Assembly (NCBI RefSeq): GCF_017115025.1
Contig: NZ_JABXKM010000061.1
Location: 1-64,000 of the forward strand
DNA: 64,000 nt
Direction of reading: 5' to 3'
DNA from: Nostoc sp. NOS(2021)
Lineage (GTDB): Bacteria; Cyanobacteriota; Cyanobacteriia; Cyanobacteriales; Nostocaceae
The notes beneath the pieces were generated by a model. That model searched no databases. It was not told where the DNA came from and saw nothing but the letters and a program-made list of their open reading frames with translations. Both the position numbers and the translations under genes were made by a program. Within the stretch, counting starts at the first letter, position 1. The number at the start of each line of letters is the position of its first letter. Positions 9,036 to 22,794 of the stretch are shown one piece after another.

Positions 9036-10271
9036 GTGCCTAAACAAGACTTTCTGCTACAAGCAGATGAATTTCGTTCGATTCCTGTCCCATTTTCTGG
9101 GCGAAGCATCAAGCTATCGACCTGCTTTGTTAAAATAAGTGAGGTTCCAGAAGAATGGTGTGACTGGCTTGAAGTTAATCCGCGAACACCGCAGCGGAAA
9201 AAGTCAGGAGAACTTAAAGGGACTGTTGTAAACGGAATGATTGACACCTTGAGTGACGAACCTGAGATGTTTGCCCTAAAGAATCAGGGAATTTTTGTTA
9301 CTGCCGAAAAAGTTGAGTTTGACAAAGAAACTGGTGGGCAAGGCATTGTCAGAATCAAGTTGACAGATCCTAAAAAACATGGTGTTGTCAATGGAGGTCA
9401 CACCACTCAAGTAATTATGCAAGCTCGGAACAATTCAGAATCTTTTCCGAAGCTTGAAGAGGCTTTTGTAAGACTTCACATTTACGTATCTGGAGATGTC
9501 GATTCTGGGTTCATTGCCAGCATTGCTGAGGGTCTTAATACATCTTTGCAGGTGAATAATCCTAGCTTGGAGAACCTAAAAGGTACATTCAATAAAATTA
9601 AAGATTCTCTCCGAGGCAAACAAGGAGAGGAGCAGATTGCATACTTTCAAGGAGATAGCGGAGAAATTGAGATTACCCAGGTTTTAGCATATCTTGCAAT
9701 GTTTAACCTGAACGTGTTTTCAGACCGCACCACTCATCCCAACAAGCTTTTTGGTCAAGCAAAGGAAGTTTTAAGAATTTTTACGGAGGATATGGGAGAC
9801 TCTGGAAAACATGCCTTTGAACGTATAATTCCATACACATCTGATATCCTCATCTTGTCTGAACTTATTATGCAGAGGGGAATCATCAACCTTGGTAAGT
9901 TGAAAGTCAGCAATGCAAAGAAGGGTAACAGAGCTAGGTCGCCAAGAAATCTAAATCGACTAGCACACTTTGCTGGAGGAACTATTGACGGTCGCTTTCA
10001 TCAAGGGTGGCTTTATCCTCCGTTGGCAGCATTCCGAGCTAATATTTCCAGAGATGCTTGGGATAAGGGTGAATTTCGCTGGCTCTACGATCCGCTTCAG
10101 CTTCTCGATAAGACTATCGACGAAATGATAGAAATCGTCAAGCAGGAACACACTGATAACAATAGAAAACCTGCGGAAGTTGGACGCAAAGAAGCAGCTT
10201 ATCGAGGCTGCTACAGTGTAACAATGATGGAGTTGGCTAAACTTGGAAAACTAGAGATAGGCAAAATTTAG
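9036..10271 (+). CDS. AIPR family protein (abortive phage infection)
   Basis: The 411-residue product starts with GTG behind a TAAGGA ribosome binding site. It matches the AIPR family named after lactococcal abortive-infection proteins: FALKNQGIFVTAEK, then VVNGGHTTQVIMQA (about residues 126-139), then a segment with AEGLNTSLQVNNPSLENL. AIPR proteins often belong to phage-defence loci or accompany restriction systems. Here the gene stands alone, flanked by repeat-rich intergenic DNA on both sides, consistent with horizontal acquisition. No signal peptide or membrane segment is seen, so a cytoplasmic protein is expected. The biochemical activity of the family is not established. Confidence 0.85.
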   Translation: MPKQDFLLQADEFRSIPVPFSGRSIKLSTCFVKISEVPEEWCDWLEVNPRTPQRKKSGELKGTVVNGMIDTLSDEPEMFALKNQGIFVTAEKVEFDKETGGQGIVRIKLTDPKKHGVVNGGHTTQVIMQARNNSESFPKLEEAFVRLHIYVSGDVDSGFIASIAEGLNTSLQVNNPSLENLKGTFNKIKDSLRGKQGEEQIAYFQGDSGEIEITQVLAYLAMFNLNVFSDRTTHPNKLFGQAKEVLRIFTEDMGDSGKHAFERIIPYTSDILILSELIMQRGIINLGKLKVSNAKKGNRARSPRNLNRLAHFAGGTIDGRFHQGWLYPPLAAFRANISRDAWDKGEFRWLYDPLQLLDKTIDEMIEIVKQEHTDNNRKPAEVGRKEAAYRGCYSVTMMELAKLGKLEIGKI

Positions 10272-10625: not shown

Positions 10626-13600
10626 CTAGTTTTCGGAAGTTTCCTGGGAGAACTTCTTATGGATAGTTCTAGTGGATTCCCCATCAGCAGCTACCGTTAT
10701 GAGATAGTCCATTAAACCATCTGAAAAGGGAAGACGTAGGTGGAAAGTACCATCGGGTTTGATTTTGATGGTATGACCACCAATGTTTACGGTTGTATTT
10801 GGTTGGGTTGCTCCGTGAATAATCAACTCAGCATCAGCCACAAACCAAAAATCTCCGTGGGGATGACTGAAGACCCGAACATTAGATGAACGGGCGATGA
10901 GTAACCACCGATCGCCATCAGCGATATAGCCAATTTCAACCATGTAGTCGTGATCGCTGACAGGAATAGCCACAAAGCGATCGCTTGCTACCTCTTCACA
11001 TTCATACTGCTGTACAAGCTGGGGACTTTGATAACTCAAGTCAATCCCAGTCACATCGTAGAGCCGCACTACCAATTGGGAGCCGCCCTGTTGTTGCAAC
11101 GCTTCGTTCTGAGTCTTGGAAATGTACCAAGAGACATAAGCCCATTTGGGAGTGCGGGGTGTGAGTACAATATTGCTCTCTTCTTGGGCATCTACCAAGC
11201 CAATAGTTGTTTCGCTTGTTAACGCTGCATTTTCAACGGTGGGATCTATTGTGGAATCTGTATGGACAGGACTGAAGACACGAGCGATCGCGGAACGGGC
11301 GATGAATAACCAGCGTAGTTTACCGCCTTCGGCATCGCCATCAGCGATATAGCCAATTTCAGCGATGTAATCGCGATCGCTGACGGGAATTTCCACAAAG
11401 CGATCGCGTGCTGTCTCTTCACATTCATAGTGCTGGACAAACTGAGGACTTTGATAACTCAGGTCAATGCCAGTCACATCGTAGAGCCGCACTACCAATT
11501 GAGAGCCGCCCTGTTGGCGTAGCGCGGCTTTCTTGGTTTCGGAAATCTCCCAGGAGACATAAGCCCACTGGGGAGTGCGGGGTGTGAGGACAATATTGCT
11601 CTCTTGTTCACTGATCTCTTCTTGGGCATCTACCAAGCCAATAGCAGTTTCGCTTGTTAACGCTACATTTTCAACTGGAGTATCTGTTATAGGATCTGTA
11701 TGGACAGGACTGAAGACACGAACGATCGCGGAATGAGCGATGAATAACCAGCGTAGTTTACCGCCTTCGGCATCGCCATCAGCGACATAGCCAATTTCAG
11801 CGATGTAATCGCGATCGCTGATGGGAATTTCCACAAAGCGATCGTGTGCTGTCTCTTCACATTCATACTGCTGGACAAACTGAGGAGTTTGATAACTCAG
11901 GTCTATCCCAGTTACATCGTAGAGCCGCACTACCAATTGAGAGCCGCCCTGTTGTTGCAGCGCGGCTTTCTTGGTTTCGGAAATCTTCCAAGACACATCA
12001 GCCCACTGGGGAGTACGCGGTGTGAGGACAATACTGCTCTCTTCTTCACTGCTCTCTTGTTCACTGATCTCTTCTTGGGCATCTACCAAGCCAATAGCAG
12101 TTTCGCTTGTTAACGCTACATTTTCAACTGGAGTATCTGTTATAGGATCTGTATGGACAGGACTGAAGACACGAACGATCGCGGAATGAGCGATGAATAA
12201 CCAGCGTAGTTTACCGCCTTCGGCATCGCCATCAGCGACATAGCCAATTTCAGCGATGTAATCGCGATCGCTGATGGGAATTTCCACAAAGCGATCGTGT
12301 GCTGTCTCTTCACATTCATACTGCTGGACAAACTGAGGAGTTTGATAACTCAGGTCTATCCCAGTTACATCGTAGAGCCGCACTACCAATTGAGAGCCGC
12401 CCTGTTGTTGCAGCGCGGCTTTCTTGGTTTCGGAAATCTTCCAAGACACATCAGCCCACTGGGGAGTACGCGGTGTGAGGACAATACTGCTCTCTTCTTC
12501 ACTGCTCTCTTGTTCACTGATCTCTTCTTGGGCATCTACCAAGCCAATAGCAGTTTCGCTTGTTAAAGCGACATTTTCAACTGGGGTATCTGTGATGGGA
12601 TCTGGATGAACAGGACTGAAGACACGAACGATCGCTGAACGGGCGATGAATAACCAGTGTTCGCCATAAGCGACATAGCCAATTTCAGCTATGTAATCGC
12701 GATCGTTGACGGGAATATCCACAAAGCGATCGTGTGCTGTCTCCTCAGATTCATACTCCTGTAACAGGTGGGGACTTTGATAACTCAGGTCAATGCCAGT
12801 CACATCGTAGAGCCGCACTACCAATTGAGAGCCGCCCTGTTGTTGCAGCGCTGCTTTCTTGGTTTCGGAAATCTCCCAAGAGACATGAGCCGATGTATAA
12901 GTATGCGGTGTGAGGACAATATTGCTCTCTTCATCTGCATCTCCCCAATCAATATCTGTTTCATCCCCAATCGGCAGATCATCAATTATGGGATCTGGAT
13001 GAACAGGACTGAAGACACGAACGATCGCTGAACGGGCGATGAATAACCAGTGTTCGCCATCAGCGACATAGCCAATTTCAGCTATGTAATCGTGATCGTT
13101 GACGGGAATATCCACAAAGCGATCGTGTGCTGTCTCTTCACATTCATACTGCTGTAACAGGTGGGGACTTTGATAACTCAGGTCAATGCCAGTTACATCG
13201 TAGAGCCGCACTACCAATTGAGAGCCGCCCTGTTCCCGCAGCGCTGCTTTCTTGAGTTCGGAAATCTCCCAAGAGACATGAGCCGATGTATAAGTATGCG
13301 GTGTGAGGACAATATTGCTCTCTTCATCTGCATCTACCAAATCAATATCTGTTTCGGCTGCAATCGGCACATTGTCAACCGAAGTATCAGTTTCTCCTTG
13401 GGCATCTGATGCAATGGTAGCCCAGGCTCCAATCCCTGCGCCTGCTACTACGGCAGCAGCAGTGGCAAAATCTGGGGAGTCAGTTTCAGCAACATCTTCC
13501 CCAATAGTCGGCTCTGCTTGAGATTCTTCCTCTAGCAAATCGCCATTGGGTTCGGCTGCGTCCGCCACCACATTGAATGCATCTTCTGGCAATTCTGGCA

Positions 13601-15551
13601 AATCGGGCAGTGGTTCCACATCGGCTGCCACTTCGCCAAACTCTGGTAAGGGAAATTCATCTACTGAGGCTGTATCTTCAGTTGAGGTGATACTCTCTAG
13701 CCAGTTCAATTCTGCCTGAAGTTCCTCATCTATGTGATCTTCACTAACTTCTGTGTCCCAATATCCAAAATCAGATGTCACTTCTGGCACATCTGGTAAT
13801 TCCGGGAGTGGGGCTGTCACCTCAGATGCCTCTTCTGGAATATTAGCCAGGTGAGGATATGAAGTATTTACTACAGCCGCTGGGGCTTCTATGTCCCATG
13901 CAACTTGATCAGACTCAGGAGGGTTTGTCTCCATATAATTATTTAGCTCGATTGTCTCATCAATCGCGTCTGTTTGTGTTTCTTTGTTGCTAAAGGCAGA
14001 CCAGGTAGCCGCCCCGATGCCCGTTGCTAGAGCCGCACCACCGGTTAAAGCTGCGGCTCCGAAGTTGTTATTTTCTGATCCATTAGCTACGTCTGAGGTT
14101 GTGTCTTCGTAGAGGTTAGAGGTGCCATTAGTTGCCTCTTGTACTAAATTTGATGTCCCCTGAGTAGCGTTCTGGGTCAGGTCAGATTGTGTTTGAGCAT
14201 AGATGTTGAAAGGAGTGCGATCGCGGGTTTCTTGCTCTTGGTAGTGCGGCACTGGCTGCTCCTCAAGCATCGCTCCGTTAACGTAGGGATTTGTGCTGGC
14301 GTTAAGCACCGCCGTTTCTCCAACTTCTGTGCTGGGTGGATAAGGATTTGATTCTGGTAAGTTGTCTGTTTTCTCAGTCGGCAATGGGCGTTTTCCCAAA
14401 ACCCACCATAGTAACCCTCCAGCTAGAGTAATAAAAAAGAAAGGTAGCAGCAACCACAATGGTGTTTCCCTGTCTACAATTGGACTCTTTTGTGCAGGAG
14501 TAGCCACAAACGGCTGTTCGCCAAATACAGAATTAGTGGCACTAGGGGAAGGCGTAGCAACTGGTGTCGTCTGGGCATTGGGGGAAGGCGTGAGAGCAGG
14601 TGTCGTCTGGACACTGGGGGAAGGCGTGACAGCAGGTTGTAATACGCTGGCTGCGATCGCCTCTGCTTCAGTAGTTCTAGCTTGTTCTATAGCTTGCTGT
14701 CCTGGGGGTGCAAGGGTAAAGCCGAGAAAATCTACTATGGTTAAGCTGGGATTTTTTTTGTAAACGTAAACTAAAGGTTGCGAGAAAGGATATTTAGGAT
14801 CATTTGGCAAGGTTTGATGTAATTGCAGAACTCGCACACCTTTCAACTTCGACACCTGATTAGCTAACACATAGCTGATGCCGTCTTTGCCCAGTTTTTT
14901 GATGATTTCTGCGGTATTATCCTCAGTTAGTTGGGTAGCATTAGAACCTGTAGCAAAGTCAGCAACTTTGAAGGCTGGATAAGCACGGAAAGTATCACGA
15001 GTATCGCTGGTGTTAGGGCGATCAATTACCCGAATCTTCCCTGGAGGCCCTCCCAGTTGTGACCAATTTGTAATTGTTCCCCGAAAAATGCGGGCGAATT
15101 GCCTACTGGTCAAGCTTTGCTTGAAAGGATTATCTGCACCAACCACGATCGCAATCTTTTCACGGCGCAAGCGAACTTGCTCTAGTCCTTGGGCTTTTTC
15201 TGCTGGTGTCAACCCACGCCCGATTGCTGCTATGTCAATTTTGCCATCTAGCAAATCTTTCAGTGCCGTACCAGTGCCGTTAGCAGCAATTTCAACCTTT
15301 GTGCCGGAAAACTGTTTTTCAAAACTTTCTTTCAGGCTTTGGTTGATTGCAGCCAAGCTACTTGAACCGTCAATCCGCACTGTTGTCCCATTCTGCACTG
15401 CTTGTGGCAGTGGAAAAGAGGAAGCTTCAGGTGTAGATTGTGCCAGCATCGGTGCAGATACCACCAGAGTTGCTGCCATCGGGGTCGTTGCTAAGGCAAC
15501 CCATAATACCAGCCTGACTATTGAAGTATCTTTTTTTTCTTGTTGCCACAT
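10626..15551 (-). CDS. PstS-like substrate-binding protein with six DUF4912 repeats
   Basis: A 1641-residue chimera. Residues 1-38 look like a signal anchor; about 50-300 form a phosphate-binding-protein-like domain (DGSSSLAAINQSLKESF, then SRQFARIFRGTITNWSQLGG). A proline/threonine linker and a membrane helix follow (LLLPFFFITLAGGLLWWVLG, about 365-385). A long acidic low-complexity region precedes six DUF4912 units, each opening with (N/S)IVLTP and carrying GGSQLVVRLYDVTGIDLSYQ, DRFVEIP and a YIAEIGY core. The C-terminal 60 residues form a small beta domain with GATQPNTTVNIGG. Units 3 and 4 are practically identical in DNA (period 453 bp). The PstS-like part is probably extracytoplasmic and the repeats cytoplasmic. 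Function unknown. Confidence 0.82.
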   Translation of the reverse strand: MWQQEKKDTSIVRLVLWVALATTPMAATLVVSAPMLAQSTPEASSFPLPQAVQNGTTVRIDGSSSLAAINQSLKESFEKQFSGTKVEIAANGTGTALKDLLDGKIDIAAIGRGLTPAEKAQGLEQVRLRREKIAIVVGADNPFKQSLTSRQFARIFRGTITNWSQLGGPPGKIRVIDRPNTSDTRDTFRAYPAFKVADFATGSNATQLTEDNTAEIIKKLGKDGISYVLANQVSKLKGVRVLQLHQTLPNDPKYPFSQPLVYVYKKNPSLTIVDFLGFTLAPPGQQAIEQARTTEAEAIAASVLQPAVTPSPSVQTTPALTPSPNAQTTPVATPSPSATNSVFGEQPFVATPAQKSPIVDRETPLWLLLPFFFITLAGGLLWWVLGKRPLPTEKTDNLPESNPYPPSTEVGETAVLNASTNPYVNGAMLEEQPVPHYQEQETRDRTPFNIYAQTQSDLTQNATQGTSNLVQEATNGTSNLYEDTTSDVANGSENNNFGAAALTGGAALATGIGAATWSAFSNKETQTDAIDETIELNNYMETNPPESDQVAWDIEAPAAVVNTSYPHLANIPEEASEVTAPLPELPDVPEVTSDFGYWDTEVSEDHIDEELQAELNWLESITSTEDTASVDEFPLPEFGEVAADVEPLPDLPELPEDAFNVVADAAEPNGDLLEEESQAEPTIGEDVAETDSPDFATAAAVVAGAGIGAWATIASDAQGETDTSVDNVPIAAETDIDLVDADEESNIVLTPHTYTSAHVSWEISELKKAALREQGGSQLVVRLYDVTGIDLSYQSPHLLQQYECEETAHDRFVDIPVNDHDYIAEIGYVADGEHWLFIARSAIVRVFSPVHPDPIIDDLPIGDETDIDWGDADEESNIVLTPHTYTSAHVSWEISETKKAALQQQGGSQLVVRLYDVTGIDLSYQSPHLLQEYESEETAHDRFVDIPVNDRDYIAEIGYVAYGEHWLFIARSAIVRVFSPVHPDPITDTPVENVALTSETAIGLVDAQEEISEQESSEEESSIVLTPRTPQWADVSWKISETKKAALQQQGGSQLVVRLYDVTGIDLSYQTPQFVQQYECEETAHDRFVEIPISDRDYIAEIGYVADGDAEGGKLRWLFIAHSAIVRVFSPVHTDPITDTPVENVALTSETAIGLVDAQEEISEQESSEEESSIVLTPRTPQWADVSWKISETKKAALQQQGGSQLVVRLYDVTGIDLSYQTPQFVQQYECEETAHDRFVEIPISDRDYIAEIGYVADGDAEGGKLRWLFIAHSAIVRVFSPVHTDPITDTPVENVALTSETAIGLVDAQEEISEQESNIVLTPRTPQWAYVSWEISETKKAALRQQGGSQLVVRLYDVTGIDLSYQSPQFVQHYECEETARDRFVEIPVSDRDYIAEIGYIADGDAEGGKLRWLFIARSAIARVFSPVHTDSTIDPTVENAALTSETTIGLVDAQEESNIVLTPRTPKWAYVSWYISKTQNEALQQQGGSQLVVRLYDVTGIDLSYQSPQLVQQYECEEVASDRFVAIPVSDHDYMVEIGYIADGDRWLLIARSSNVRVFSHPHGDFWFVADAELIIHGATQPNTTVNIGGHTIKIKPDGTFHLRLPFSDGLMDYLITVAADGESTRTIHKKFSQETSEN
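11599..12503. repeat. Two-copy 453-bp tandem duplication
   Basis: DNA from about 11599 to 12051 recurs with a period of 453 bp (151 codons) in the next block to about 12503. I saw no difference over most of the length. It encodes DUF4912 units 3 and 4 of the large protein. The period being a multiple of three keeps the frame open. The near identity, against visible divergence of the other units, points to a recent duplication. Confidence 0.8.
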
Positions 15552-15866: not shown

Positions 15867-17107
15867 CTTCTGGTTTCATCAACAACAGCCTTTCCACCTT
15901 GCGGTTTATCGGTCTTACGTCGCTTCGACACAGCAAGAACGGGGTTCCCTCCGCCCACAGATAATATCCGAAGTCCTTCTGTTCTTATATTCAACGCGGC
16001 ATTGCCATCACGATCATGATCAATGCCGCATGAGGGGCAATTCCATTCTCTTACATCAAGTGGCAACTGATCAACTACGTGACTACAGCAAGAACAGGTT
16101 TTAGAACTGGGGAAAAATCGACCTATCTCTACAAGTTGACAATCTTGTTGTCTCAACTTGTAATCTAGAAAATTAATAAATATTCCCCAGCCCACATCGG
16201 ATATTGATTTTGCTAGCTTGCGGTTGCGTACCATTCCCTTGACATTGAGATTTTCAACGGCAATAACTTGGCTATCGTCTACCAGCTTTCTGCTTAACTT
16301 ATGCAGAAAATCTTGGCGGGAATTTGATACTCTTTCGTGAACCTTAGCTACTATTTTTTTAGATTTTTGTCTTGACTTACTTCCTTTAGTTTTACGTGCA
16401 AATTTTTTCTGTTTACGGGCTAGATTTTTTTGATGACGCTTAAGGTGTTTAGAATTGGAATACTTGGCAACTTGCTCACCATCATGGACAATTGCAAAGT
16501 CCTTTAATCCCAAATCAATACCAAGTATTTTGTCCCCCTTCGGGTTCGCCACTTTACCATCGACGGAAACCGCCAAGACGGTAAGTGGCTCACCAGATGA
16601 AGAGTCTTGAGTGCATTCTACTTCAACTAAGATCGAGGCAAAGTACTTGTCAGTAGAGGTTTTGCTGATAGTGACAGTTTTGATTTTCCCTTCAATCGCT
16701 CTATGGAATACTGCTTTGACTTCGCCAATCTTGGGAATCTTTAACTGATTGCCTGCAATAGCAACACTTTGCGGATATTGGATAGATTGCTTATGCTGCT
16801 TTGACTTGAAGTTAGGAAATTTAGCCCGTCCCTCAAAAAAATTCTTATATGCCTTGTCAAGATTGATTGCTACACACTGCAAAACGGATGAATAGCAATC
16901 TTCCTTTAACCAAGGATATTCTAGCTTTAATTGAGGTAAAAGACCTTTATAAACACTCAATTTTAATGATTTATTTGTTTGTTCATAGTGTTGAATGCAA
17001 GCATTTAAAGCATAATTCCAATACCATCTAGCGCATCCAAAAGATTTAGACAATGCTTTTTGCTGTTCGGTTGTTGGATCTAGCCTTACTTTGATTGCTT
17101 TCAACAC
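15851..17107 (-). CDS. tnpB: RNA-guided endonuclease TnpB (IS200/IS605 OrfB)
   Basis: The 418-residue protein has the full TnpB layout. An N-terminal OrfB helix-turn-helix region (1-100) contains FGCARWYWNYAL. The RuvC-like catalytic residues are all present: D198 in GIDLGLKDF, E285 in AVENLNVKGM and D367 in HDRDGNAALN. A zinc ribbon is formed by C338, C341, C357 and C360. TnpB is a nuclease guided by an RNA made from the element's own 3' end; it is not the transposase itself. No tnpA is adjacent, so mobility would need TnpA in trans. The frame runs into the right-end hairpin. All motifs are intact and the gene could be active. Confidence 0.93.
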   Translation of the reverse strand: MLKAIKVRLDPTTEQQKALSKSFGCARWYWNYALNACIQHYEQTNKSLKLSVYKGLLPQLKLEYPWLKEDCYSSVLQCVAINLDKAYKNFFEGRAKFPNFKSKQHKQSIQYPQSVAIAGNQLKIPKIGEVKAVFHRAIEGKIKTVTISKTSTDKYFASILVEVECTQDSSSGEPLTVLAVSVDGKVANPKGDKILGIDLGLKDFAIVHDGEQVAKYSNSKHLKRHQKNLARKQKKFARKTKGSKSRQKSKKIVAKVHERVSNSRQDFLHKLSRKLVDDSQVIAVENLNVKGMVRNRKLAKSISDVGWGIFINFLDYKLRQQDCQLVEIGRFFPSSKTCSCCSHVVDQLPLDVREWNCPSCGIDHDRDGNAALNIRTEGLRILSVGGGNPVLAVSKRRKTDKPQGGKAVVDETRSPHFS

Positions 17108-17172
17108 TTTTAACTCCTTTATGTTGAGCCAAGTCGAAACATAACAATATTATTTTCAGAGACGTAGCACTG

Positions 17173-18309
17173 CTAAGTCTCTAGAAGTGGTTCCACTTCT
17201 TTGAGATAACAATGACAATCTGGCTTATCAATCAGTGACTCCACCAAGGCATTTAGGGCAGTTGCAGCTAAAGCGCCACCTCCCAAAGTTCCTTCAACTG
17301 TAATAAAAGGTATCGCTTGTTGCATTAGTTGTCGTTTGGCTGCGGGAGCATGGCTAAAGCCAATGGGCATTCCAATTACTAATGCAGGCTGAATTTTCTG
17401 GTTGGCGATCGCAATTGATGCTTCCAGAAGTACTGAGGGAGCATAACCAACTACCAGCACGCAACCATTACTTACTTGCTGCAATTTTTCTCGCCATTCT
17501 CGATGTTGCCAAAAGGCAAGTTCGGCCTCTGTGGCGGTGGTAATATGGGGATTATCAATCAAGGTTTCAATCCGGCATCCCAAGTGAAGTAATCGGGTTT
17601 GATCCAAAGCAGCAGCAACCGTTTGGGTATCGACTACAATTTGACAGCTTGAAGATAAAGCTTCTCGACTAGCGGCGATCGCACCTCGACTCAATTTGAT
17701 AAAGGACACCAAACTCACATCGCCAGAAGCCAAAACCAACTGAGATATTAAGTGTTGTTCAATTTCCGAACGGTTAGACAAATCAGGTAATAAACGTTGT
17801 AGCGATTCTGTAAAAGCTTCCGAGTGCGTATGAATTTCGGCATCCAAGCCACTCCAGAGATTTTCCAATCCCCCCAATCCGGCTTGAGTTTCGACATCGA
17901 GTAACTTGAGTTGTGCCAAAACTTCCGCCTGGATAATTTGACAATGGCGATCGCGCCCCAATAATCCTTCTAATGCTGATGCAGTTTGCCGCAGTTGGGA
18001 AATTTGTTGCATCACCGCCCGATATTGCTGCTGAAGTTGTCCCATGAGGTTAACAGTTGTTTCGGCTTCTGGTTCCACCTCCAAAATATTGCGGATATGG
18101 TTTAGCTGAAACCCTTGCTGCTTGAGTGCTACAATCCGTTGCAACCTGAGAACATCTTTTTTGGTGTAGAGACGGTAATTGCTGCGCGATCGCACTGGTT
18201 GCGGTAATAATCCCAATTGATGGTAATGGCGCACCATCCGCGGAGTTAAACCGCCGCCCACCAAATGCGTTAACTGCTTAATTGTCAGATCGCTACTTTT
18301 GATTTCCAC
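17173..18309 (-). CDS. coaR: Cobalt-responsive MerR-type regulator CoaR with CbiC-like domain
   Basis: The 378-residue protein fuses a MerR DNA-binding domain (about 8-80: TPRMVRHYHQLGLLPQPVRS, then YTKKDVLRLQRI) to a precorrin-8X methylmutase (CbiC/CobH)-like domain (about 180-355, with GYAPSVLLEA and ALVIGMPIGFSHA). The C-terminus carries Cys-His-Cys (DCHCYLKEV, C365-H366-C367), the cobalt-sensing motif known from Synechocystis CoaR. CoaR activates the cobalt exporter gene coaT. Here coaT is 2.2 kb away on the opposite strand, and its promoter carries a MerR-type dyad. The start codon is GTG. In Synechocystis coaR and coaT are adjacent and divergent; here three foreign-looking genes lie between them. 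Confidence 0.92.
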   Translation of the reverse strand: MEIKSSDLTIKQLTHLVGGGLTPRMVRHYHQLGLLPQPVRSRSNYRLYTKKDVLRLQRIVALKQQGFQLNHIRNILEVEPEAETTVNLMGQLQQQYRAVMQQISQLRQTASALEGLLGRDRHCQIIQAEVLAQLKLLDVETQAGLGGLENLWSGLDAEIHTHSEAFTESLQRLLPDLSNRSEIEQHLISQLVLASGDVSLVSFIKLSRGAIAASREALSSSCQIVVDTQTVAAALDQTRLLHLGCRIETLIDNPHITTATEAELAFWQHREWREKLQQVSNGCVLVVGYAPSVLLEASIAIANQKIQPALVIGMPIGFSHAPAAKRQLMQQAIPFITVEGTLGGGALAATALNALVESLIDKPDCHCYLKEVEPLLET

Positions 18310-18420
18310 GAATTACGCTATTAATTAAAGAGGTTAATTGTTGTCGAGGGGGCGTTTAGAAAAGGCGATGTCTGACGACAAGCCACTGCGTGTCTACGCT
18401 TTTAACCTAGCTTAGTTAAA

Positions 18421-19044
18421 CTACCTGCTAGCGGATAATTTTTTCTGTATATTAGCTGCTTGGATGACGTTGTTGTTGCTCGTAAATACCTGAATATCTG
18501 GAACAACAGCATAATCCATGTCATGTGTGATAATTTTAATTTTACCTGCTCCTGCTCTGCTAATAGCTTCGAGAAGTAGTAAGTCATAGCCATCAACAGC
18601 TTGAGTTTGGAATCTGTTTAGTGCTGCATCGGTCGTTGCGTCATCTACTCTCAGATCAACAGAAACAGCCAGCGCCTTAACCTGACTCCAAGCTGACTGA
18701 ACTTCGGCAACAACATTCATTCGTTCATTTGAATAATTATGGCGGTATTCTTTGAGTGGCAGATGACCATGAGACTGCATATAAATCTTATATTCAGTTC
18801 TCTCAATGATATGAGCAAGCTCCGCCAATATAAGTCCAGAGTAGGTTAGTGTGGCTCCATTTACAAGAGCTTGGTTGAGATATGTTAGATAAATACTGAA
18901 TTCGGAAGCGTTAGCACCAAACCCAGCATTTGTATAAGTCTGCCAAAACCAGACGTTGGTATCTACAAGAAAAATATCACCCTGCTGCGGAGTATCAGTT
19001 TTGATGTCGATGATATCAGCTTGAATCTTAAGGTTGACTACCAT
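18421..19044 (-). CDS. PIN domain protein (putative ribonuclease)
   Basis: The 207-residue protein shows the four acidic positions of a PIN nuclease: D28 in FLVDTNVWFW, E75 in ILAELAHIIE, D154 in DGYDLLLLEA and D175 in ITHDMDY. PIN proteins cut RNA as VapC-type toxins or in RNA processing. It is longer than a usual VapC (about 130-140), with an N-terminal extension of 22 residues and an insert around 85-120. It is the last gene of a tight minus-strand row: three bases separate it from the STAS-like gene. No VapB-like antitoxin is present, so control may come from the two partner genes. Confidence 0.8.
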   Translation of the reverse strand: MVVNLKIQADIIDIKTDTPQQGDIFLVDTNVWFWQTYTNAGFGANASEFSIYLTYLNQALVNGATLTYSGLILAELAHIIERTEYKIYMQSHGHLPLKEYRHNYSNERMNVVAEVQSAWSQVKALAVSVDLRVDDATTDAALNRFQTQAVDGYDLLLLEAISRAGAGKIKIITHDMDYAVVPDIQVFTSNNNVIQAANIQKKLSASR

Positions 19045-19047
19045 GCT

Positions 19048-19395
19048 TTAAAAAGTTGCAGCCTGCTCTGCGATCGCTGCATCAACCGCATTACGAAATT
19101 GCTCATCAGAATAGTAATGCTTGGCATTGCCAATCACACGCTCAAGAACATTCCACCCCTCAGAACTTATAGCGGTGAACTCAAGCAATCGATTAAGGTT
19201 ATCTGCTGGAATATCCTTCAAGAGATGACCGATTGCTAAGTTGAAAAAGGGAGACGCAAAGACCTGAACTCCAGTAAAATCCAATTCTACAGGGTTGCCA
19301 GAAAGCAGAACTGGATGAATCTGGTCATATACCTTCTGTCCACTTTCAGCGCTGATGGCGTATTTCCCGACGATATCAAAAATTTTGTATGCCAT
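19048..19395 (-). CDS. STAS-like DUF4325 domain protein
   Basis: This 115-residue protein fits the STAS-like DUF4325 family. The segment PVELDFTGVQVFASPFFNLAIG (about 35-56) corresponds to the strand-helix core that in anti-anti-sigma factors carries the phosphorylated Ser. DUF4325 genes are commonly found next to a GHKL ATPase gene, as here. It sits between the HATPase gene (16-bp gap) and the PIN gene (3-bp gap), so all three are almost certainly cotranscribed. A role as switch between kinase and effector is inferred from family and context. Predicted cytoplasmic. Confidence 0.78.
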   Translation of the reverse strand: MAYKIFDIVGKYAISAESGQKVYDQIHPVLLSGNPVELDFTGVQVFASPFFNLAIGHLLKDIPADNLNRLLEFTAISSEGWNVLERVIGNAKHYYSDEQFRNAVDAAIAEQAATF

Positions 19396-19411
19396 TCCTC
19401 TATCTCCCTCT

Positions 19412-20323
19412 TTAAAATAACCGCTTCTTAAGTTGATGAGCTTCAGTTGCTAGGTAGTAGCAAGATTCATCACACCGAATTGCAATATTAATCAGGGTTC
19501 CTCTAAAATTAGTACATTTGTTCTCATATATAATATTATCGCCTATATTGACATATCCGTCATTACTAAAGATTGTAAGGTTTCCATGATTTTTTACGAT
19601 GAACTCCTGCAATAAATTTAAGCCTGCGCCACGGGAGATACTGTCTTGCTTAGTGCTATTTCCAGGCTCGAACGCCCACTGTAGAGCCTCATTAGCAGTT
19701 TTGTCTGAGTTCTGAGGTAGAGAGCGAACATTACTAGGGATACCAATACCAAAGTCGATGACTGTTAGATGAAGAAAACCAAGCTTGGGGTAGTGCTGAC
19801 CGCAGCTGAACACCCCCACAGCAGATTGACTATGATCAAATGCATTTAAATATATCTCTAAGACTCGCCCTGTAATTGCATCTTGTAGTCTTGGACTGAT
19901 GTTGACCCAACCTTTGCCCAGCCAATTATATTTCAGGTAATCTGCAATAACACTCATATCCTGCTGAAGATCATTCCGGTAAGGTATTGAGTTGCCATCC
20001 CACGGTTTCGTGTTAAAACCGAAATCATACAAGAAGCCATTCTGAGCTAAGTTCATCCGAATTTTGTCTGGAAGTGTATTCCAATCGAAAGCGAGAGAGC
20101 CGCCACGAGCTTCTACAAGACGGAATAGTCCCCCCAAAAAAGCAACGCCGTAGTGTCCCAAGAATTCGCAGTAATGAAAATCTACTTTGATATTTAAGCA
20201 ATCTTGGGGTAACTGCTCAATTTCATCCCTAAGTTTGAATAACTTATTAAAATGATGGGGATTATCATCAATCTTGGTTATATAAAGAATTAAATTTGGC
20301 TGGTTTTTAGTCTCTAAGAGCAA
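19412..20323 (-). CDS. GHKL-type ATPase with N-terminal STAS-like region
   Basis: The 303-residue protein has an N-terminal STAS-like part (about 10-100, with CLNIKVDFHYCEFLGHYGVA) and a C-terminal histidine-kinase-type ATPase. The ATPase has the N-box EIYLNAFDHS (E156, N160), G1 box VIDFGIGIP (D190) and G2 box SRGAGLNLL (231-236). No phospho-acceptor His domain or membrane segment is seen, so it resembles an anti-sigma-type kinase rather than a two-component sensor. The start is TTG with a good ribosome binding site (CGGAG five bases upstream). It is first in the row with DUF4325 and PIN genes and diverges from coaT. Confidence 0.8.
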   Translation of the reverse strand: MLLETKNQPNLILYITKIDDNPHHFNKLFKLRDEIEQLPQDCLNIKVDFHYCEFLGHYGVAFLGGLFRLVEARGGSLAFDWNTLPDKIRMNLAQNGFLYDFGFNTKPWDGNSIPYRNDLQQDMSVIADYLKYNWLGKGWVNISPRLQDAITGRVLEIYLNAFDHSQSAVGVFSCGQHYPKLGFLHLTVIDFGIGIPSNVRSLPQNSDKTANEALQWAFEPGNSTKQDSISRGAGLNLLQEFIVKNHGNLTIFSNDGYVNIGDNIIYENKCTNFRGTLINIAIRCDESCYYLATEAHQLKKRLF

Positions 20324-20456
20324 GATAACTCCGACTATTACAGATATTTATTAGTTATTTATATCTTGAACTTTAACACTGGTATCAACAAGATTTAGCA
20401 TTTTTTGCGATCGTGGAGCGTGCCAGAGGCAATTGGTGTCAGAGCATTTTTCAGGC

Positions 20457-20494
20457 TAAACCTTGACATTAACATCAATGTCAAGGTTTAAGGT
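20457..20494 (+). promoter_or_regulatory. CoaR-type operator-promoter of coaT
   Basis: A perfect 14-bp inverted repeat (TAAACCTTGACATT, 20457-20470, against 20477-20490) with a 6-bp centre overlaps a -35 element TTGACA (20463-20468). A -10-like TAAGGT lies at 20489-20494. The spacing is 20 bp, longer than the usual 17, which is what MerR-family activators need. It sits 27 bp before the coaT ATG. Binding by the CoaR encoded at 17173 is inferred. Confidence 0.8.
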
Positions 20495-20521
20495 GAAAGA
20501 GTCCCTGTTAATTCACCTCTC

Positions 20522-22477
20522 ATGCTCTACCCCCAACGTTTCACCCAATTCACCAGAGAACACGCAGATACAGTAGCAGCCCTTTTGTGTGGCTTACTGC
20601 TATTTCTCGGATGGTTCGCCTTACATCTTGGCGCTTTGGGATTGGCGTTCTTGCTGCTACCTGCTGCTTATGTGATTGGTGGTTACGAAAGTGCGCGAGA
20701 AGGATTGACTACCCTCTTCAAAGAAAAAGAACTCGATGTAGATTTGCTGATGATTGTGGCGGCCATTGGTGCTGCTAGCCTCGGCTTATGGCGAAGAGAA
20801 TATCATCTAATTATTGATGGGGCAATTTTGATTCTCATCTTTGCCATCAGTGGCGCATTAGAAGGCTATGCAATGCAGCGAACTGAGCAGAGTATCCGCA
20901 GTTTGATGAGCCTGACACCAGATACAGCAAGGGTTTTACATCAGGGAAGAGAAGATGAAGTTTCCATCACTCACCTAAAAGTGGGTGATGAGATTGTCGT
21001 CAAACCTGGAGAGCTAATTCCTACTGATGGGATAATTTTATCTGGTTACAGCACCCTGAATCAAGCTGCAATTACAGGCGAGTCTTTACCTGTAGAGAAA
21101 ACAGTGGGCGAAGAAGTATTTGCTGGCACCCTTAACGGCTATGGTGCATTGCAAATTAAGGTACACAAACCAGCCCAAAGCAGTTTAATTCAGCGTGTAA
21201 TTCGCTTAGTAGAACAGGCGCAGACTCAAGCCCCTCCTTCCCAAGAGTTTATCGATCGCTTTGAACGAGGATATGCCAAAGTTATTGTAGTAGCTGGGAT
21301 ATTACTGGCAATTTTGCCGCCATTTCTTTGGGGTTGGGATTGGGAAACAACAATTTATCGCGCCCTTACTTTCCTGGTGGTAGCTTCTCCCTGTGCGTTG
21401 ATGGCGGCAATTATGCCCACCCTGCTTTCGGGAATCGCCAATGGTGCAAGACAGGGGATTTTGTTTAAAAATGGGGCGCAGTTGGAGAAGATTGGCAAAG
21501 TCCGAGCGATCGCATTTGATAAAACTGGTACTTTAACAACAGGACAGTTGCAGGTATTCAAGGTAATTTCAGCTAGTGAATACACTCACGCAGATGTATT
21601 AAAAGCCGCAGCTAGTGTAGAATCTTCTTCAGAACATCCCATCGGTAAGGCAATTGTGCAGGCGGCTGGTGATTTGAATTGGGTTGGTGCAATGCAAGTG
21701 CAAGCTATACCTGGACAGGGAATTGTGGGAATCGCCCAAGAACAACAGATAATTGTGGGGAATGCCGTTTTTGTGCAACAGTATGTGACAAATTTACCTG
21801 AAGAATTGCAAGAAATGGCTCAATCTTTAGAGCAAGAAGGTAAAACCGTCGTTTGGGTAGCGAAGAAGGCTCCGGCTCCCCTCCTCGCTTGCGGGGAGGG
21901 GTTGGGGGTGGGGTGTTTTGAGGTGATGGGTGTAATTGCGATCGCAGATGAAGTAAGATCGCAAGCAGCCGCAACCATTACCCGGTTAAAGAAACTGGGA
22001 ATTGAGCAAATTGTCATGTTAACTGGGGATAATCAGGAAACTGCTCACAGTGTCGCCAAAGCAGTCGGAATTGATCGAGTATATGCTCAACTTCTACCAG
22101 AAGATAAGCTGGATGTGATCCGTCGTCTACAGCAAGAATATCAAACTGTGGCAATGGTGGGCGATGGTATAAATGATGCACCAGCCCTAGCGCAAGCATC
22201 TGTAGGTATAGCGATGGGAATATCTGGGAGTGATGTGGCATTGGAAACCGCAGATATAGTATTAATGGCAGACAGGTTAGAAAAAATTGCCGTGGCGATA
22301 CATTTGGGTAGGCGATCGCAATCCATAGTCAAACAGAATATATTCGTAGCGTTGGGTTTTATTGTGTTGCTTTTGGTGGGCAACTTTCTGGGAAATATTA
22401 ACCTACCCATTGGCGTTATTGGGCATGAAGGTTCCACAGTGTTAGTTACCCTCAGTGGTTTAAGATTGCTCAAATAA
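20522..22477 (+). CDS. coaT: Cobalt/heavy-metal P1B-type ATPase CoaT
   Basis: The 651-residue membrane pump has the P-type ATPase marks: TGES (185-188), phosphorylation site DKTGTLT (D333), the HP motif in SSEHPIGKA and GDGINDAP. The transmembrane motif SPC (289-291) and HEGST in the last helix (635-639) define the P1B-4 group, whose members export cobalt and related ions. There is no N-terminal metal-binding domain, as expected for that group. The CoaR-type operator precedes it. Oddity: about 16 residues (APAPLLACGEGLGVGC) between VWVAKK and FEVMGV are encoded by a dispersed palindromic repeat inserted in frame at the N-domain/P-domain junction. Confidence 0.92.
   Translation: MLYPQRFTQFTREHADTVAALLCGLLLFLGWFALHLGALGLAFLLLPAAYVIGGYESAREGLTTLFKEKELDVDLLMIVAAIGAASLGLWRREYHLIIDGAILILIFAISGALEGYAMQRTEQSIRSLMSLTPDTARVLHQGREDEVSITHLKVGDEIVVKPGELIPTDGIILSGYSTLNQAAITGESLPVEKTVGEEVFAGTLNGYGALQIKVHKPAQSSLIQRVIRLVEQAQTQAPPSQEFIDRFERGYAKVIVVAGILLAILPPFLWGWDWETTIYRALTFLVVASPCALMAAIMPTLLSGIANGARQGILFKNGAQLEKIGKVRAIAFDKTGTLTTGQLQVFKVISASEYTHADVLKAAASVESSSEHPIGKAIVQAAGDLNWVGAMQVQAIPGQGIVGIAQEQQIIVGNAVFVQQYVTNLPEELQEMAQSLEQEGKTVVWVAKKAPAPLLACGEGLGVGCFEVMGVIAIADEVRSQAAATITRLKKLGIEQIVMLTGDNQETAHSVAKAVGIDRVYAQLLPEDKLDVIRRLQQEYQTVAMVGDGINDAPALAQASVGIAMGISGSDVALETADIVLMADRLEKIAVAIHLGRRSQSIVKQNIFVALGFIVLLLVGNFLGNINLPIGVIGHEGSTVLVTLSGLRLLK
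21868..21920. repeat. Palindromic repeat inside coaT
   Basis: CCCCTCC and GGGGAGGGG arms around CGCTTGC, followed by a G-rich tail, reproduce the dispersed repeat at 1-40. It is read through in frame by coaT and adds a loop without a stop codon. Confidence 0.75.
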
Positions 22478-22794
22478 ACCACTCTTCTCTGTTTTCGGGG
22501 AACCCGCTGTTAGCGCCTGGCTCACCACTTTGGCATCACTAACACTTAAAGCAATACGCTTGGGTTAAGGCTGAAAATCATGTAAATTAGGCATTGTTCC
22601 CAAGCATGGAAACTCAATACAGTTCAGTTAAGCATTTTTTTCTTCTCTCTGTGTTCTCTGCGCCTCTGTGGTTCGTAAAAAAAAATTGACCTTGACAAAG
22701 GATTTTAGGCTTAACCCAAGCGTATTGCATGGAAACTGAATATGGTGCATCTCAAGGATTTCTCGTTGGTGTCTCTGTACAACAGACTTTTGCT
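22478..22794. other. Intergenic region containing a MITE-like element
   Basis: Between the convergent coaT and TPR genes; dominated by the inverted-repeat element at 22551-22728. No gene is seen. Confidence 0.6.
22551..22728. mobile_element. MITE-like element, 19-bp perfect terminal repeats
   Basis: GCAATACGCTTGGGTTAAG at 22551-22569 is repeated exactly in inverse orientation at 22710-22728, delimiting 178 bp. The interior has no ORF. It contains a CTCTGTGTTCTCTGCGCCTC stretch. Short related sequences CATGGAAACTCAATACAG (22605) and CATGGAAACTGAATATGG (22728) occur inside and just outside the right end. Confidence 0.65.

Follow-up and report, generated by a model that had tools for sequence, protein, structure and literature searches.

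A very probable VapKSC phospho-switched toxin-antitoxin operon in Nostoc, and its relatives with lost or possibly exchanged kinase genes

Why would a bacterium place the genes of a kinase and a STAS protein directly in front of the gene of a PIN ribonuclease? The question is raised by three ORFs on the minus strand of a stretch of 64,000 nucleotides from Nostoc sp. NOS(2021) (contig NZ_JABXKM010000061.1, positions 1 to 64,000; hereafter the window). They span 18421-20323 with intergenic gaps of 16 bp and 3 bp, the layout given in an initial annotation that was made from the sequence alone, and Pfam together with matches to the structure 9Z7O gives their order as kinase, STAS, PIN, each adjacent to the next. 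The first gene, vapK (19412..20323; 303 amino acids [aa], TTG start), encodes a predicted GHKL kinase with a possibly STAS-like N-terminus; vapS (19048..19395; 115 aa) encodes a STAS (DUF4325) protein, the putative antitoxin; and vapC (18421..19044; 207 aa) encodes the putative toxin, a PIN RNase. By its sequence, the operon is very probably VapKSC, a phospho-switched toxin-antitoxin module. This kind of system is already known from a paper in EMBO J of June 2026 (Chambers et al., PMC13373217), and the window adds one member. The new part lies outside the window, which carries the kinase version, and consists of kinase losses and of relatives with other upstream genes.

The identity of the operon is supported by similarity to the VapS-VapC complex of Escherichia sp. 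E4736 (PDB 9Z7O). Pfam matches VapC to the PIN family only weakly (E value of 0.091), but its PIN identity is settled by the match to the solved structure: window VapC alone finds VapC of 9Z7O with an E value of 4.7e-43 over residues 7-203, and a PIN profile finds chain C at 1.8e-58. Our residue alignments draw on Cyanobacteriota, a plasmid from Deinococcus, phages of Streptococcus and a contig that is recorded as a gut phage. In them the acidic quartet to which the initial annotation had drawn attention (D28/E75/D154/D175) is invariant in 10/10 PIN proteins, down to 20% identity, and the same quartet is present in all 74 full-length cyanobacterial VapC loci counted. The codon of the catalytic aspartate D28 is at 18961..18963 (minus strand). 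VapS matches DUF4325 in Pfam (E value of 2.2e-16), the family first given to it, and matches Escherichia VapS of 9Z7O on its own at 5.4e-17; a profile of the STAS proteins finds chain A at 1.2e-29. The alignment of window VapS with 9Z7O VapS extends through residue 112, well into the inhibitory tail (94-116); the C-terminal tail of window VapS (residues 94-115; 19051..19116, minus strand) corresponds to the segment that extends to the active site of VapC (PMC13373217). The putative phosphosite S48 (codon 19252..19254, minus strand) lies within a FASPFFN motif that 9Z7O VapS also has and is S or T in 11/11 rows.

VapK scores just under the Pfam cut-off for HATPase_c (E value of 5.2e-5; 24.1 bits against 26.4), and its N, G1 and G2 boxes are present and invariant in 10/10 aligned rows (E156, N160, H164, D190, G192, G194, G232, G234, L235, G275 and T276), in agreement with the GHKL ATPase call made earlier. 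The STAS-like N-terminus scores weakly (Pfam STAS_2, E value of 0.22; VapK profile against the STAS protein TM1442, 0.02), and PHROGs places VapK in phrog_3364, a family of unknown function (E value of 7e-37). Position 54 (codon 20162..20164, minus strand) is a putative contact to single-stranded DNA (ssDNA), corresponding to F54 in Escherichia VapK and W68 in CapK; it is F or W in 10/10 rows, and by number and conservation window F54 appears equivalent to Escherichia F54. One relative, L009, was left out of the VapK alignment owing to a stop codon (L and G numbers are our labels for loci and genomes). Among 29 full-length cyanobacterial VapK proteins, 26 keep all seven residues checked; of the other three, one carries N in place of D190, and the remaining two, which are distant, show Y54, N190 and T194, perhaps through slips in the alignment. 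The TTG start is preceded by GGAG 5 bp upstream, and the closest relatives (L002-L008) share its position. The window genome contains one VapK homologue. A PADLOC match of VapK to DrmA (E value of 4.7e-6) was rejected, as it spans 113 of 1750 profile positions.

The arrangement is not due to chance, because the same gene order is met again across Cyanobacteriota, as well as on a plasmid of Deinococcus and in records of phages or prophages; the three families, which the initial annotation had expected to find together elsewhere if they form a system, do recur in the same order in other genomes. The distribution of VapC is patchy, with relatives in 22 of 53 genomes of the genus (E value up to 1e-6), 77 of 217 of the family (up to 1e-10) and 27 of 386 drawn from the phylum (up to 1e-6), and the nearest named relatives are Nostoc records with 97% identity. 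Three-gene operons were also found on a plasmid of Deinococcus gobiensis, in Streptococcus phage Javan172, on IMG/VR contigs (L150-L153), and on a 7-kb contig whose record describes it as an unverified gut phage. The PIN proteins of Javan172 and Deinococcus resemble that of the window weakly on their own (E value of about 1e-4), and we assign them because gene order and motifs agree as well. The vapC-like gene of Javan172 (L012:5170-5697) is unannotated, starts with TTG and overlaps the STAS gene. A tblastn search of plasmids with window VapC (1e-5) gave no match, the divergent Deinococcus copy having been reached via VapK.

How might the operon work? Homology and residue conservation suggest the following for the window. 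At rest, VapS would bind the PIN RNase VapC in a 2:2 complex, with the C-terminal tail of VapS near the active site. Phage attack or other DNA damage would yield ssDNA, VapK would bind it and phosphorylate Ser48 of VapS, predicted to lie in the VapS-VapC interface, and phosphorylated VapS would release VapC. The freed RNase would cut cellular RNA and growth would stop; tRNA or rRNA as the target is a guess of the authors of PMC13373217. The sections of that paper on which we draw name the operon vapKSC (VapK, GHKL kinase; VapS, STAS antitoxin; VapC, PIN toxin) and report for the Escherichia homologue the structure of the complex, toxicity, neutralization, its loss on S48E, and phage protection that depends on three residues. 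VapC is toxic unless D28 is mutated, D28A being non-toxic; VapS neutralizes it via its C-terminal tail; S48E abolishes both neutralization and copurification; and vapKSC gives a protection of ~2 log against phage Bas42, which is lost in VapC D28A, VapS S48A and VapK F54A. For two further steps, triggering by ssDNA and the transfer of phosphate from VapK to VapS, the paper takes CapK/CapS as its model, and both are conjectural for Escherichia too. Of the 289 vapKSC instances that the paper counts, 103 have another immune gene within 10 kb; its main text has no words beginning with cyanobacter or Nostoc, and the window operon may be in its instance data set.

The proposal of a partner-switch pair that gates a PIN RNase has been demonstrated in large part for a homologous operon, and the suggestion of a stress or defense module agrees with the protection of Escherichia against one phage, for which D28, S48 and F54 are needed (PMC13373217, in the same sections). 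The absence of a VapB-like antitoxin, which the initial annotation had stressed, holds in that no VapB family matched the three proteins (Pfam, NCBIfam) and the adjacent gene is DUF4325/STAS. Our analysis refines this point: the STAS protein would itself be the antitoxin and the kinase its releaser, making the operon a toxin-antitoxin system despite the lack of VapB.

Could the kinase-STAS pair instead be an ordinary anti-sigma/anti-anti-sigma regulator, with the PIN gene as a bystander? The GHKL and STAS domains are those expected of one, the VapK profile weakly touches anti-sigma F structures (E value of 0.5-0.6), and more distant kinase-STAS genes without a PIN gene occur (L087 and phage pairs). 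However, every cyanobacterial full-length VapK locus (E value < 1e-60) has a PIN gene adjoining vapS, if one includes a broken gene in L070 and one cut by the contig end in L071, and the VapS and VapC homologues form a complex in the crystal (9Z7O). No sigma factor gene stands in the operon, whose third gene encodes a PIN nuclease and whose neighbors encode a MerR-CbiC protein and a P-type ATPase. We therefore find the bystander explanation hardly credible. Equally improbable, in our view, is transcriptional control of the CapK/CapS type, in which the STAS protein would bind DNA and the pair would thereby regulate a neighboring immune operon. The protein families are indeed related, and CapK is activated by ssDNA, but CapS has a winged helix-turn-helix (HTH) and CapK an N-terminal HTH (PMC13373217, in part), whereas no HTH was found in window VapK or VapS (Pfam, E value up to 1), and the 115-aa VapS aligns to 9Z7O VapS through its tail.

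If VapKSC is a toxin with an antitoxin and a releaser, which of its genes can be lost? Our decay test started from VapC, which left losses of VapK or VapS visible. The first batch held 96 cyanobacterial loci from the genus, family and phylum searches, with short VapC fragments left out: 79 of the type found in the window (class A) and 17 distant ones (class B). Six class A loci whose operon was cut by a contig end were set aside (L105, L108 and L164, with full-length VapC; L187, L195 and L212, with broken VapC). The remaining 73 comprise 54 loci with a full-length VapC and 19 with a broken one. Next to full-length VapC, VapS is intact in 54/54 loci and VapK in 29/54; next to broken VapC, VapS is missing in 8/19, compared with 0/54 (Fisher P value of 5.6e-6), and VapK is intact in 2/19. 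On a VapS-VapC tree of the 54 loci, the state of VapK changes at least 16 times (parsimony). The second batch, found with the VapC of a variant as the query, comprised 20 new genomes (20 of 50 places were taken, 25 were in genomes already seen, and G574, G609, G683, G727 and G796 were left out), with VapS present in 20/20 and VapK intact in 8/20. Combined, the cyanobacterial loci with full-length VapC and enough flank have an intact VapS in 74/74 and an intact VapK in 37/74. That VapS was never lost beside full-length VapC and VapK often was fits a role of VapS as the antitoxin and of VapK as a dispensable releaser.

Might the cyanobacterial trio then be mainly an addiction or stabilization module, a plain toxin-antitoxin system in which phage defense is secondary or absent? 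Such a role would agree with the persistence of VapSC without an intact adjacent VapK in half of the loci and with the frequency of broken copies (the 19 with broken VapC). On the other hand, the same site is occupied by restriction or AAA ATPase genes in two of six relatives, and the Escherichia homologue protects against a phage and requires VapK F54 to do so (PMC13373217, in the sections cited), and we consider a mainly addictive function unlikely.

The phospho-switch remains our preferred explanation. It is favored by the matches to both chains of 9Z7O, the key residues, the recurring gene order, the constraint on VapC and VapS, the decay pattern, the changes at position 48 in loci without intact VapK, and the restriction or AAA ATPase genes at the site in two of six relatives. 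Several points weigh against it. That VapK phosphorylates VapS is conjectural even for Escherichia, whose VapK was insoluble (PMC13373217). The aromatic residue at position 54 fails in one of 16 wider relatives (I in L153; F or W in 15/16). Around the operon (9-30 kb), an abortive-infection-type family occurs in 1 of 10 window ORFs (Pfam, PADLOC), an AIPR gene. VapSC may have a use of its own without an adjacent VapK, since half of the counted pairs persist without an intact one, and the ratios of nonsynonymous to synonymous substitution rates (dN/dS) of VapC and VapS stay below 0.5 (0.08-0.44) in 15 comparisons chosen by hand in which one or both members lack VapK. The ratios are 0.06-0.21 in seven pairs with VapK, so constraint on VapSC is kept, perhaps in somewhat relaxed form. 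Between the window and a close relative (L096 versus L126) they are 0.21 for VapC and 0.14 for VapS, which speaks for the switch. Assembly errors could account for some of the VapK breaks, such as the single frameshift of L185. Finally, the covariation of S48 with VapK is partial: position 48 of VapS is S or T in 37/37 loci with intact VapK, and 30 of the 37 without it also keep S or T (Fisher P value of 0.011, or 0.04 for the first batch alone), in a test that is not corrected for relatedness and whose second batch was found with a variant query.

What distinguishes the seven loci in which position 48 has changed? All of these exceptions (five P, two A) occur where another gene precedes an N-terminally extended VapS, and they represent three kinds of upstream gene; across these kinds, VapS is extended and position 48 is not S/T in 7 of 8 genomes. 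In the first kind, found in four genomes of two families (L188:8-4171, L255:1823-5419, L256:1961-5599 and L257:1407-7588), a large CHAT gene lies 3 to 99 bp upstream of VapS and is followed by the extended VapS and VapC. The gene of L188 matches TPR and CHAT in Pfam (CHAT, E value of 2.9e-40), those of L255, L256 and L257 match its CHAT part with 46-47% identity, and the His (FHF[AT]GHG) and Cys (ACET) motifs of CHAT are present in 4/4 genes. The VapS proteins share an N-terminal domain of about 130 aa and have P, P, S and P, respectively, at position 48. In the second kind (L155:3573-5679 in G307 and L258:2073-4179 in G725), a TIGR04255 gene precedes extended VapS (P48) and VapC; that of G307 (E value of 1.5e-18) overlaps VapS by 19 bp, and that of G725, which is 97% identical to it, overlaps VapS likewise. 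In the third (L156:3205-5102 and L186:2256-4162, in G203 and G523), a gene of no known family for a 229-aa protein lies 11 bp upstream of extended VapS (A48), again followed by VapC. In these variants a protease or another protein may take over from the kinase.

A protein stretch with the extra N-terminal domain of the CHAT-linked VapS is also found in 21 of 388 genomes of the class (23 loci), with a CHAT match just before it in 6 of the 23 (5 contigs; L265, L266/L285, L267, L268 and L286) and no VapS or VapC match within the 1.5-kb flanks of any. At these six loci the domain forms a small protein of its own, encoded just behind the CHAT gene, and is perhaps a general CHAT partner or substrate domain. 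Because VapS is fused to a domain that elsewhere stands separate beside CHAT genes, a protease is a conceivable trigger. We hypothesize, tentatively and as an idea that is plausible while still short of probable, that VapS-VapC is a toxin-antitoxin core with an exchangeable trigger, of which the kinase is one of several, and that the CHAT protease may cleave or displace the extended VapS. Among the literature matches listed, none appears to concern a system joining a CHAT protease or TPR-CHAT protein, VapC, an antitoxin and STAS.

Parts of the operon have further relatives. The 17 class B loci contain a distant VapS-VapC-like pair, with VapC full length in 16/17; those of L159 and L197-L210 are from the same family as the window. 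In 11 of 14 inspected, the gene immediately upstream of the pair is cinA (ten of L197-L210, and L159, where Pfam identifies it), and the others follow a glycyl-tRNA synthetase gene (L160) or a GAF histidine kinase gene (L163) or lie elsewhere (L209). No VapK match was found beside class B pairs in the stretch examined, the flank of L205 being too short to tell, nor in the two class B genomes covered by the VapK search (G221, G140). Kinase-STAS pairs without VapC were found at 34 IMG/VR loci (L032-L065), of which about a dozen are nearly identical copies from Streptococcus; the STAS gene was located in 33/34 and a PIN match in none of the 34. Such pairs, which lie on phages and prophages and include L011 and L016, also occur in Streptococcus phages. 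Position 48 is S or T in 18/18 aligned VapC-less pairs, and most of the VapS tail is missing. By eye, no recurrent effector followed the pair in 25 phage loci, some of which end soon after it, except for a CsbD-like gene in Streptococcus phages. In other cyanobacterial genomes, L085 and L086 have a distant VapK-like sequence within a single ORF (about 420-440 aa) that also matches STAS weakly, and L087 has one paired with a STAS gene; no PIN match was found at L085, L086 or L087.

At what kind of site does the operon sit? In the window (17173-22477) it lies between a gene for a MerR-CbiC fusion and a divergent P-type ATPase gene, which we take to be the coaR-coaT cobalt pair. The MerR-CbiC gene was found in 53/53 genomes of the genus, and we compared its surroundings in eight that have no vapC match. 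The ATPase gene lies beyond it in six and was not found in the fetched stretch of the other two. The six gaps measure about 175, 596, 1,082, 1,375, 1,765 and 2,348 bp and show no nucleotide similarity to vapKSC. One is too short for a gene (L221), one has a single 53-aa ORF (L224), L217 and L223 hold two genes of no known family, one gap has an AAA_15/21 ATPase gene with a partner gene (L219), and one encodes a fusion of a C5 methylase with a nuclease of the EcoO109I type (L218). These varied contents suggest that genes come and go at this site, two of the six sets being of defense type. Just before the ATPase gene, at 20440-20507, is an inverted repeat with 31-nucleotide arms; it is perhaps an operator of the metal regulator, because parts of it also match at relatives without vapKSC. 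Rfam had no match within 17000-22600, and scans gave 8 promoters (5.7 +/- 2.5 expected) and 0 terminators (2.1 expected). Farther away, the window contains the AIPR-family gene (abortive infection type; 9036-10271), ~8 kb from the operon, and a gene for a 1641-aa protein with several long, similar internal repeats (10626-15551); an IS605-type TnpB near the operon also scores as Cas12-like in PADLOC. In other genomes, type I restriction genes lie beside vapSC at L161, where VapK is gone, and at L162, where it is truncated and Septu ptuA/ptuB are adjacent as well.

Our work illustrates that a reading of raw sequence located a real, recently characterized immune switch. The natural kinase losses in cyanobacteria provide an independent check of the published VapKSC model, because toxin and antitoxin were not parted in the loci counted and the kinase often was. 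There are hints from some relatives that other proteins, a caspase-like protease perhaps among them, can stand in as the trigger, and these variants make the wiring of one toxin to different alarms testable. If the idea is true, one RNase toxin would be freed by phosphorylation in certain bacteria, while others would use proteolysis.

How does the operon compare with known systems? None of Pfam, NCBIfam, PADLOC and PHROGs names it. The PIN systems DS-3 and DS-5 of DefensePredictor (PMC13092281) differ from the trio as described in the part of that paper used here, where a figure legend of predicted systems also names a HATPase, and the covered passages of a 2020 eLife paper on conflict systems (PMC7159879) do not describe the trio. 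The closest known system is VapKSC of Escherichia sp. E4736, which is alike in gene order, domains, S48, D28, the VapS tail and, by number, F54; VapC and VapS align with their counterparts over nearly the full length, whereas the host phylum and the chromosomal site, between MerR-CbiC and P-type ATPase genes, differ; the two are not known to differ in function. CapK and CapS, as the cited sections of PMC13373217 present them, are also a GHKL kinase, with a STAS domain that window VapK may share, and a STAS substrate with a conserved serine, but both carry HTH domains that have no match in the window pair, and their output is de-repression of an immune operon instead of toxin release. VapBC likewise combines a PIN toxin with a protein antitoxin; that antitoxin is VapB, while the window has a STAS protein in its place and a third gene, for the kinase. 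In the SpoIIAB/SpoIIAA and RsbW/RsbV partner switches, a kinase phosphorylates a serine of a STAS protein and thereby changes its partner. The partner in those switches is a sigma factor, whereas that of VapS is a nuclease.

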